This document shows, in pieces, positions 3,688 to 45,145 of a DNA stretch of 45,145 nt. This DNA comes from Phycisphaerae bacterium (GTDB lineage Bacteria > Planctomycetota > Phycisphaerae > Tepidisphaerales > Tepidisphaeraceae). Made by a program: the position numbers and the translations under genes. The notes beneath the pieces are model-generated. The model saw only the letters and a program-made list of their open reading frames with translations. It was not told the origin of the DNA and did no database searches. Where the stretch lies: the NCBI GenBank assembly GCA_025924315.1, contig JAICIO010000041.1, positions 1 through 45,145 of the forward strand, written 5' to 3'. The stretch's first letter is position 1; the number at the start of each line of letters is the position of its first letter.

Positions 3688-3754
3688 GGTCCGCGTCAGC
3701 GGGCCGGTTATTTGCTGTAGGAGCGAATGAATAACCGGTCCGCTGAAGCGGACC
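3688..3754. repeat. Double-hairpin palindrome, GGTTATT family (copy 1)
   Basis: Outer arms 3688-3712 and 3730-3754 match at 23 of 25 positions. Each arm is itself a hairpin (GGTCCGC...GCGGGCC on the left, GGTCCGC...GCGGACC on the right) joined to a GGTTATT/AATAACC stem. It lies between the TetR gene and the ftsI stop. Its sister copy is at 12690-12764. Confidence 0.85.
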
Positions 3755-12689: not shown

Positions 12690-12764
12690 GTAGGGTGCGC
12701 TTCAGCGCACCGGTTATTCATTTGCGCAGAGACGAAATAACAGGTGCGCTGAAGCGCACCCTAC
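12690..12764. repeat. Double-hairpin palindrome, GGTTATT family (copy 2)
   Basis: Outer arms 12690-12718 and 12736-12764 match at 28 of 29 positions. Each arm holds its own hairpin GGTGCGC/GCGCACC joined to GTTATT/AATAAC. Compared with copy 1 (3688-3754), the stem pairs change from C-G to G-C at the same places, while the AATAAC, CTGAAG and CCCTACGAGA segments are kept. Confidence 0.88.
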
Positions 12765-13098: not shown

Positions 13099-13178
13099 TG
13101 TCATCCTGAGCGAAGCGAAGGATCTCGGATCGAGAGTTGCTTTCGAAGTCGAGATCCTTCGCTTCGCTCAGGATGACA
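13099..13178. repeat. Perfect long palindrome, GCGAAGCGAAGGAT type
   Basis: Arms 13099-13127 and 13150-13178 are perfect 29-base inverted repeats around a 22-base loop. The element fills the spacer between the LysM gene and ftsL and could act as a strong mRNA hairpin. The arm sequence type (CATCCTGAGCGAAGCGAAG) is known to be scattered in genomes of several phyla. Confidence 0.92.
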
Positions 13179-14248: not shown

Positions 14249-14327
14249 AGTTGTCAGTTGGCAGTTGTCAGTTGACAGTGAAATGCAGTCGTCCTCACTG
14301 ACAACTGCCAACTGAAAACTGGCAACT
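14249..14327. repeat. Palindrome, CAGTTG-word family, overlapping the rsmH stop
   Basis: Left arm 14249-14271 (AGTTGTCAGTTGGCAGTTGT...) and right arm 14298-14327 are imperfect inverted repeats built of the drifting word CAGTTG(T/G). The right arm runs into the TAG stop codon of rsmH (14326-14328 on the minus strand). Confidence 0.8.
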
Positions 14328-21016: not shown

Positions 21017-21160
21017 AACCGCAGAATAGATGCCGATGCACACGGATCAATTGCCCACGAATCTCACGAATTTTCACGAATGAATTCCGGATTCGTGTCG
21101 ATTCGTGTGATTCGTGGGAAACAATTCTTTATCTGCATTCATCTGCGTATATCTGCGGTT
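21017..21160. repeat. Nested palindromes: CACGAAT element inside an AACCGCAGAT element
   Basis: The outer arms are 21017-21040 (AACCGCAGAATAGATGCCGA...) and 21134-21160 (ending ATCTGCGGTT). Between them lies a second palindrome of the CACGAAT-word family, arms about 21054-21085 and 21091-21118. The outer right arm ends at the base before the murC stop codon. The arrangement looks like one element inserted in the loop of another. Confidence 0.82.
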
Positions 21161-22660: not shown

Positions 22661-22774
22661 AGGAAGACAACCGCGAAGGCGCGAAGAGCGCGAAGGAAGC
22701 CGCGAAGAGAGCAATCTGAATTGCTTCGCGTTTGTTCTTCGCGACCTTCGCGCCTTGGCGGTTTCTTCCGTCCT
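22661..22774. repeat. Palindrome, GCGAAG-word family (copy 1)
   Basis: Left arm about 22661-22707 (AGGAAGACAACCGCGAAGGC...) and right arm about 22724-22774 (CTTCGCG ... GGCGGTTTCTTCCGTCCT) pair imperfectly. Both arms are drifting tandem copies of (G)CGAAG. It lies between murC and the divergent DUF1460 gene. A second copy is at 36918-37013. Confidence 0.75.
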
Positions 22775-36532: not shown

Positions 36533-36612
36533 AACCACGAATGGACACGAATTTACACGAAGGAATCCAAAATCCGTTTTCTGATTCGTGTCCATTCGTG
36601 TTCATTCGTGGT
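36533..36612. repeat. Long imperfect palindrome, CACGAAT-word family (copy 3)
   Basis: Left arm 36533-36561 (AACCACGAATGGACACGAAT...) and right arm 36583-36612 (...CATTCGTGGT) pair with few mismatches. They belong to the same family as 716-788. It lies between the lexA transcript start and the YjfB-like gene. Confidence 0.85.
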
Positions 36613-36917: not shown

Positions 36918-37013
36918 AATTGTCGCGAAGGCGCGAAGATTCGCGAAGATCGACGAAGAAGACATTCTCTTGTGTTTCTTCGTGAATCTTCGCGTGCCTT
37001 TGCGTCTTCGTGA
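36918..37013. repeat. Palindrome, GCGAAG-word family (copy 2)
   Basis: Left arm about 36921-36958 (TGTCGCGAAGGCGCGAAGAT...) and right arm about 36976-37013 (TTTCTTCGTGAATCTTCGCG...) are built of drifting GCGAAG words. It lies between the YjfB-like gene and the rnpB terminator. Related to 22661-22774. Confidence 0.75.
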
Positions 37014-37024
37014 AACAGCTGTCA

Positions 37025-37064
37025 GAAAAGGACGACGGCGAGCTCATTGCTGGGCTCGCCGTCG
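37025..37064 (-). terminator. Rho-independent terminator of rnpB
   Basis: A perfect 11-base stem, CGACGGCGAGC (37033-37043) and GCTCGCCGTCG (37054-37064). On the minus strand it is followed by CCTTTTCT. It lies directly after the mature 3' end of the RNase P RNA. Confidence 0.8.
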
Positions 37065-37072
37065 ATCGTTTG

Positions 37073-37590
37073 CACGCGGCTGCGTGTAAGCCGAATTTTG
37101 TTTACCCTGATTGATCGAGCGGGCCTTTCGACTCGCTGCTCTCGCTCAAGGCAGGCCATCATTTCTCTGGGATCACGGTTGCCCGTGACCTCAAGCGACC
37201 TACCCGCGGATTTGTCCCAGCCAGCAAGCTGACTGGGCGTTCGGCGCGGGCCACGCCTATCCGCATATTTGGTCTTGCTGCCAGTGGGGTTTGCCGTGCC
37301 GTTTGTGTCACCACAAACGCGGTGCGCTCTTACCGCACCTTTTCACCCTTACCTGAGGAATAAGGATGAAGGATGAATTATGAACGATGAAAACGCCTAT
37401 TTCATCCTTCATAATTCAGACTTCATCCTTATTCCCCCGGCGGTTTGTTTTCTGTGGCACTTTCCGTCGGATTGCTCCGCGTCGCCGTTAGCGACCACCG
37501 CGCCCTTGCAGTTCGGACTTTCCTCACCCCAGGGCAAGCTCGGGACAGGTCCCTCGCCTGACTCAGGGCGCGATCGCCACTGCAGCCGCG
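37073..37590 (-). ncRNA. rnpB: RNase P RNA, bacterial type A
   Basis: The catalytic RNA of RNase P, which matures tRNA 5' ends. On the minus strand the 5' P4 segment GTGAGGAAAGTCCG and the 3' partner ACAAAATTCGGCTTAC are present. So are the P10/P11 core GCCACAGAAAACAAACCGCC, CAGGTAAGGGTGAAAAGG, GTGCGGTAAGAGCGCACC (P13) and AGACCAAATATGCG. P1 is formed by CGCGGCTGC near the 5' end and GCAGCCGCG near the 3' end. At about 518 nt it is longer than usual. The extra length is a palindromic repeat in the P12 region (37357-37435). A TATAAT box lies just upstream. Confidence 0.95.
37357..37435. repeat. GATGAA-word palindrome inserted in rnpB helix P12
   Basis: Arms 37357-37392 and 37400-37435 match at 33 of 36 positions, giving a 36-pair hairpin with a 7-base loop. 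The arms are drifting GGATGAA words. The element lies between ACCGCC and CAGGTAAGGG of the RNase P RNA, exactly where the variable P12 helix belongs, and extends it. Confidence 0.88.
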
Positions 37591-43932: not shown

Positions 43933-44964
43933 GTGAGTAGCCTGAAGTTGCTCATCATCGAAGACGACGCCGATCAGCGCGACCTGATTCACGAGACGCT
44001 GGAGGATCACTTCGGGCGTGGCACTGTGCTCGGCGTTGGAAGCTGCACGGAAGCGATCGCGCAGGACCTCGCGTCATTCGATCTGATCCTGTCCGACTAC
44101 AATCTGCCCGACGCAACCGGCATGGATCTGCTGGATGCGATCCGCAAGTGCTGCAGCACGCCCGTCATCATGGTGACCGGCGAGAATGTCGGCCACATCG
44201 CGGCCGAAGCCATTCGCAAAGGCGCCACCGACTACGTCGTAAAATTCGGCGACTATCTCTTCACCATCCCGCTCGTGGTCGAGAAGAATCTGACCGTTGC
44301 GAAGGTGAAGCGCGAGAACGAAAAGCTCAGGCAGGAACTGGAACGCGCGCTCGCTGAAGTGCGCGACAAAAACGTACAGCTCGAGGAATCGCTCAATCGC
44401 GTCGAACAGATGGCCGCGACGGATCCGCTCACGGGTCTCTACAACCGCCGGCATTTCAGCCGCGTGATCGACCAGCTCTTCGCCGAGGCGCAGCGGTACG
44501 ACAAGGATTTGTCGTGCGTGATGATCGACCTCGACGGGTACAAGCAATTGAACGATGGCTTCGGCCACCAGGTGGGCGACCAGCTTCTCGTGATGGCCGG
44601 CAAGGTCATCAGCGCGAACATGCGACGGATGGACGTCGCGGCACGATATGGCGGCGATGAGTTCGTCCTGCTCCTCCCGCACGCGGGACCCGAGGACGCG
44701 ACGCTCGCGGCCCAGCGTATTCGCGACGAGTTCCGTCAGGCTTCGGCCGCGATCCTCAAGCGCGAGAAGGGCGTTTCGATGTCGATCGGGATCGGCTCCC
44801 TGATTCGCAACCGGCCCGCCGGCGCGGACCAGCTCGTGACGATTGCCGACGCCGCGCTCTATCGCGCCAAAGAACTCGGCCGCGACCGTATCGAGGTTGC
44901 GGACTTCTGCGCCATCGGCGAACTGATGGGCGGCGCCCGCGAACCCGTCGGCACGCATCCCTGA
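43933..44964 (+). CDS. Response regulator diguanylate cyclase (REC-GGDEF)
   Basis: A 343-residue protein starting at GTG 43933. The REC domain covers 1-120: LLIIEDDADQRDL, D55 in LILSDYNLPDATG, MVTGE and VVKFGD. A coiled coil (about 125-160) leads to the GGDEF domain: ATDPLTGLYNRRHF, and the active site GGDEF at 240-244. An RxxD product-inhibition site (RRMD, 231-234) stands five residues before it. It should make c-di-GMP when phosphorylated, probably by the kinase upstream. A four-codon frame ATG-CAG-CTG-TGA (43925-43936) overlaps its start. Its last 49 bases are repeated in inverted orientation at the window edge. Confidence 0.93.
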   Translation: MSSLKLLIIEDDADQRDLIHETLEDHFGRGTVLGVGSCTEAIAQDLASFDLILSDYNLPDATGMDLLDAIRKCCSTPVIMVTGENVGHIAAEAIRKGATDYVVKFGDYLFTIPLVVEKNLTVAKVKRENEKLRQELERALAEVRDKNVQLEESLNRVEQMAATDPLTGLYNRRHFSRVIDQLFAEAQRYDKDLSCVMIDLDGYKQLNDGFGHQVGDQLLVMAGKVISANMRRMDVAARYGGDEFVLLLPHAGPEDATLAAQRIRDEFRQASAAILKREKGVSMSIGIGSLIRNRPAGADQLVTIADAALYRAKELGRDRIEVADFCAIGELMGGAREPVGTHP

Positions 44965-45145
44965 TTGAAACTCCGCCCCATCAGTCACGGCCGCCCAGAG
45001 CGCAGCGCCGGGCGGCATTGCGTCCCGAGAGCGATCCACAGAATGCCGCCCGGCGCTTCGCTCTGGGCGGCCGTGAGTGATGCGGGGGAGTTTCACTCAG
45101 GGATGCGTGCCGACGGGTTCGCGGGCGCCGCCCATCAGTTCGCCG
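44916..45145. repeat. 104-base inverted repeat including the 3' end of the GGDEF gene
   Basis: Arms 44916-45019 and 45042-45145 match at 99 of 104 positions around a 22-base centre. The outermost 49 bases of each arm, the coding end of the GGDEF gene and its stop, are identical. All five differences lie in the non-coding part. The inner part (GGCCGCCCAGAGCG...) looks like another palindromic repeat. The repeat may continue beyond the window. Confidence 0.9.
45097..45145 (-). CDS. 3' end of a second, convergent GGDEF gene copy (partial)
   Basis: The minus strand from the window edge encodes GELMGGAREPVGTHP followed by TGA (45099-45097), identical to the C-terminus of the protein at 43933-44964. 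Only 15 codons are visible. It could be a complete second copy, a fragment, or an inverted assembly artefact; the window does not show enough to choose. Confidence 0.55.
   Translation of the reverse strand, partial: GELMGGAREPVGTHP

Follow-up and report, generated by a model that had tools for sequence, protein, structure and literature searches.

The closest known parallel to the locus considered here is offered by the short tandemly repeated repetitive (STRR) heptamers in rnpB, the gene for the RNase P RNA, of heterocyst-forming cyanobacteria, as they appear in papers citing the original work. That work is Vioque 1997 (NAR 25:3471), which a later review cites for the dispensability of helix P12 in cyanobacteria. 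Our locus is the rnpB gene of a member of the Phycisphaerae (Planctomycetota), which lies in a 45,145-nt stretch of contig JAICIO010000041.1 (the window, i.e., the whole stretch of DNA analysed) and in which the outer part of P12 is a palindrome built of 7-base words. We consider it likely that a dispersed palindromic repeat has inserted at the tip of P12 and is tolerated there because its RNA hairpin merely lengthens that helix. As in the cyanobacteria, tandem 7-base words stand inside rnpB and recur elsewhere in the genome; unlike the STRR heptamers, to the extent that the citing papers describe them, the words of the source genome drift, form a palindrome with a polar word order and occur in Planctomycetota and other phyla.

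Two further systems invite comparison. REPINs and REP sequences are short extragenic inverted repeats that form hairpins, occur in many copies and are moved by RAYT (Y1) transposases (PMC3116915). The word palindromes resemble them in being hairpin-forming inverted repeats present in many copies, in a source genome that has 10 Y1 transposase genes and also displays GTAG-headed REP-like palindromes. Unlike REPINs, however, they have no invariant 16-mer ends and consist of drifting heptads whose outer limits vary from element to element (e.g., GGAATAAGG, GTAAGG and GCGAAGG). These variable ends rule out membership of the REPINs, and Y1 counts also fail to separate word-rich from word-poor genomes, such transposases being found in all 26 genomes examined. 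The intervening sequences in helices 25 and 45 of 23S rRNA are likewise hairpin inserts, scattered among relatives, in an essential structured RNA whose helix ends tolerate them. The known rRNA intervening sequences are longer than the P12 element and are not built of heptads. In the literature searched, no palindrome in P12 had been described before, although this does not show that such descriptions are lacking.

The Rfam model RF00010 is covered over its full length by the gene, with a score above the cut-off of 100 bits, and the conserved core is intact, as an earlier note made from the sequence alone had stated. The same alignment places a large hairpin insertion inside the P12 loop. The earlier note had described a 36-pair hairpin at this point; its position stands and its pair count does not, since the core hairpin has 36-nt arms with three mismatches, 33 Watson-Crick pairs and a 7-nt loop. 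The drifting GGATGAA words that the note had seen can be read as heptads in both arms. Repeat search extends the arms to 37352-37392 and 37400-37440 (complementarity 88%, loop 7), and for the P12 stretch RNA folding predicts an energy of -57.5 kcal/mol (z = -11.0), which none of 200 shuffles equals. That the palindrome belongs to a class found elsewhere in the genome, including between genes, was likewise borne out: allowing two mismatches at most, the genome matches GGATGAANNATGAANNATGAA 148 times and the reversed control not once. These counts and the z-score of the fold rule out a chance hairpin at P12.

We read about 40 GGATGAA-type copies, most of which form hairpins of two complementary arms and a short loop. 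Their arms are similar and their loops have no sequence in common. The left-arm word order GGATGAA GGATGAA TTATGAA GGATGAA is common to about 10 copies, and several right arms, read from the outside inward, feature GGATGAA TTATGAA GGATGAA GGATGAA. Such a shared word order around unrelated loops speaks for copying of one template and against growth in place, and its polarity suggests that the GGATGAA-type copies have a common descent. It bears on an explanation without any mobile element, in which short words, copied by slippage and fold-back, lengthened the ordinary P12 helix in place. The arms are indeed tandem 7-mers prone to slippage, the words differ by lineage and the loops by copy; however, the roughly 40 other hairpins of the source genome carry the same words in the same order, and together with the distribution among relatives described below this makes growth in place unlikely in our view.

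In a 445-kb genome sample, from which the density was taken (genome-wide figures come from pattern counts), word palindromes of any kind occur about once per 20 kb and comprise CACGAAT, GCGAAGA, AGTTGTC, TTGATTA and GGATGAA types. REP-like palindromes of conserved sequence (e.g., GTAGGGTGCGCTTCAGCGCACCGGTTATT) are numerous in the same sample.

Among 22 genomes of the family with a readable P12, the source genome included, eight have a word palindrome in this helix and 14 have none. In the latter P12 is mostly 21-44 nt long, and in two of them (G004 and G013) it reaches about 60 nt with no word structure. At least five different words occupy the eight filled sites, namely GGATGAA in the source, GGCAGTA in G005, G006 and G023, AGTAGTC in G014, AGTTGTC in G016, TTGCTGG in G020 and GGGGCAGGCA in G025, and the GGATGAA word is found at P12 in no other of the 22. 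The duplex reaches more than 40 pairs in relatives. A similar P12 in all relatives, which the earlier note had named as the finding that would refute it, is not what we see: the sequence is absent from every close relative in the family, P12 being short in most of them and filled by a word palindrome in seven. From these comparisons, the P12 site is a recurrent feature of the lineage and its sequence is not. A normal helix conserved in the lineage is accordingly ruled out, since the P12 of relatives differs in sequence and is mostly short. Along with it goes the thought of a misassembled contig. The source genome (G000) is a binned assembly of 6.57 Mb in 262 contigs with 4.59% contamination, which would leave room for such an error; however, rnpB is single-copy in the bin, the same word family runs throughout it, and the same kind of P12 is found in G005, a relative assembled as a single contig of 7.19 Mb. 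We give a misassembly or a conserved helix almost no credence.

In the family, occupancy follows the load of words in the genome without exception. CAGTNGNCAGTNGNCAGTNG occurs 47-193 times in the eight genomes whose P12 holds a word palindrome versus 0-28 times in the 14 others, and the CAGTNGNC word count separates the eight occupied genomes (at least 47) from the 14 unoccupied ones (at most 28) with a Fisher p of 3e-6; a combined count that includes GGATGAA gives a Mann-Whitney p of 2e-4. In three of the eight occupied genomes (G000, G020 and G025) the word in P12 differs from the word counted, so the count is not merely a measure of P12 itself. By a rough estimate, with about 300 palindromes distributed over the intergenic 10-15% of the genome, a 30-bp target would be occupied in about 1% of genomes, versus the 8 of 22 seen. 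The load association suggests that P12 is nearly always filled where such repeats are active. Together with the use of P12 in other phyla (see below), it upholds the proposal of the earlier note that rnpB is a tolerant landing site. It also argues against growth in place, as does the restriction to this helix: we found no word hairpin in any other helix among 51 rnpB genes, the two other hairpins being short stems, and tmRNA, taken as a control, is 357-392 nt long with no insert in the 20 genomes with an above-cut-off match. In one genome, G017, tmRNA was matched twice over its full length (383 and 357 nt) and RpoB was also matched twice; this genome may be a mixed bin.

The same association could be read as selection, with the long P12 serving as a functional part of RNase P in large-genome bacteria, e.g., as a protein-binding or localization arm. 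It is present in all eight word-rich family genomes and its pairing is well kept; yet no sequence is common to the lineages, sister genomes manage without it, and genome size or repeat load is a simpler account of the association. Furthermore, a passage of PMC2858038 calls P12 dispensable in cyanobacteria, and we regard a selected arm as improbable.

The site is not peculiar to this family. Across the class, an exact pattern detects a P12 insert of 45-105 nt in at least 41 of 397 genomes, and many of these inserts are word palindromes. Several genera of family f14 share GTCGAAAC words at P12, and the GGATGAA word appears at P12 again in two other planctomycetes (L099 and L126). In two class members, L264 and G136, P12 features a REP-like, GTAG-headed palindrome (GTAGGGTGGG...CCCACCCTAC), which indicates that the helix also accepts palindromes of another kind. 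GTDB species genomes, scanned for longer inserts in this helix (70-100 nt), yielded at least 120 loci with 118 distinct inserts. Among the matches listed, 16 of the 118 are periodic at p<0.01 relative to shuffled perfect hairpins, 14 with period 7 and two with period 8. Periodic P12 inserts, those of period 7 included, occur in at least four phyla, i.e., Planctomycetota, Bacteroidota (Flavobacterium and Spirosoma), Thermodesulfobacteriota and Nitrospinota. In this essential ribozyme, the end of P12 appears to be a preferred lodging for selfish-looking repeats, and what had been a cyanobacterial curiosity becomes a recurrent pattern in which palindromes of different words sit at one tip of this RNA in several phyla. 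P12 offers one defined site per genome for observing how these poorly understood repeats turn over, how their words drift and where they prefer to insert, and the genes supply naturally occurring RNase P RNAs whose very long P12 lends itself to probing the role of that helix.

Within the specificity domain, P12 forms a peripheral arm that varies in length and has no universally conserved base. In the insertion scenario, a repeat copy with arms of drifting 7-base words would land at the P12 tip, be transcribed with rnpB and fold on itself as a long outward continuation of P12, while the catalytic core and the tRNA-binding parts would stay unchanged and the ribozyme would be spared. Insertions elsewhere in rnpB or in tmRNA would be harmful and such copies lost, a filter that would set where copies survive; P12 would thus be a permissive and possibly preferred site that fills when a genome is repeat-rich, each lineage with its own word. 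The reported dispensability of P12 in the passage of PMC2858038 mentioned above is background to this proposal. We infer the arrival of the element from elsewhere, the neutrality of its hairpin and its retention in the mature RNA.

Several points weigh against this scenario. The loops differ between copies, unlike in ordinary recent transposition, and no clear second copies came to light in 8-kb loci around the P12 elements of other phyla. The load tests were run on 22 genomes of shared ancestry, from which the effect of kinship was not removed. Occupancy is scattered over the rnpB-core tree, with eight changes of which at least three are forced, and over the RpoB tree, with five or six changes of which at least two are forced on well supported branches; yet those well supported RpoB branches provide only one independent pair, and weak branch support elsewhere leaves the number of independent gains uncertain and loss possible. 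The genus of the source is represented by one genome, and the comparison of empty and occupied sites was accordingly one between species.

A duplex of this length raises the question of processing. Duplexes of about 22 pairs or longer are substrates of RNase III, and the near-perfect P12 duplex has over 30 pairs here and over 40 in relatives. By analogy with fragmented 23S rRNA, the enzyme could cut the long P12 and leave an RNase P RNA in two pieces that its folding keeps together, an outcome compatible with insertion. Against this, the interior mismatches may protect the stem, and in cyanobacteria the RNase P RNA that bears heptamer repeats is an intact molecule; we rate such processing as possible at best. 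Similarly tentative is the bolder idea that word palindromes actively target P12, or even use it as a reservoir from which they spread, and that the long duplex may be cut to give a two-piece RNA. It is prompted by the occupation of all high-load family genomes and by four intergenic copies (L212, L213, L280 and L281) that end in TTATTCCTCA, which is also the last stretch of the P12 copy on its 3′ side, where rnpB sequence sets in again. Judging from these shared ends, part of the P12 3′ foot may belong to the element, and a spread outward from rnpB is possible. G006 features CTCCTCAGGTAAGGG at the corresponding place next to another word, so that the TTATTCCTCA bases may be rnpB's own. In G006 (locus L020), the P12 feet are as in the source rnpB, with a different word between them. 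The coordinates of the gene and the parts of its P12 are collected in Table 1.

Table 1. The rnpB gene, the parts of its P12 helix and the putative terminator, in window coordinates.
Feature	Position	Strand	Basis or remark
rnpB, class A RNase P RNA, complete	37590-37071	-	RF00010, model 1-367, 284.7 bits
Heptad-word palindrome, outer part of P12	37357-37435 (79 nt)	-	Repeat search, fold, covariance-model insertion
P12 5′ foot, rnpB's own, GCCGGG in RNA sense	37436-37441	-	Foot ACCGCCGGGGGA also in G006/L020
Hairpin 5′ arm, RNA sense GGAATAA GGATGAA GTCTGAA TTATGAA GGATGAA A	37400-37435	-	
Apical loop, 7 nt, without kinship to loops of other copies	37393-37399	-	
Hairpin 3′ arm, RNA sense the reverse complement of GGAATAA GGATGAA GGATGAA TTATGAA CGATGAA A	37357-37392	-	
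P12 3′ foot, TCAGGT in RNA sense, then AAGGGTGAAA	37351-37356	-	Common to G006/L020
Probable intrinsic terminator of rnpB, GC-rich inverted repeat then TCCTTTT	37026-37071	-	Repeat search

The probable terminator is absent from the list produced by a simple terminator scan. A scan of viral contigs with the N-terminus of a neighbouring reading frame gave no match. The window holds six more word palindromes of the CACGAAT, AGTTGTC and GCGAAGA types (715-789, 14249-14320, 21054-21118, 22669-22763, 36534-36612 and 36923-37013), the last of which lies about 60 bp past the 3′ end of rnpB. It also holds REP-like palindromes of the GTAGGGTGCGCTTCAGCGCACCGGTTATT and TGTCATCCTGAGCGAAGCGAAGGATCTCG types (3688-3754, 12690-12764 and 13099-13178), which are recurrent in the genome sample. 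An inverted repeat at 44916-45145 (104 bp, gap of 22 nt) terminates exactly at the contig end and may be an assembly fold-back; its centre is the repeat CCGCCCAGAGCGCAGCGCCGGGCGGCAT, which has a second occurrence in L183 at 1975-2056.
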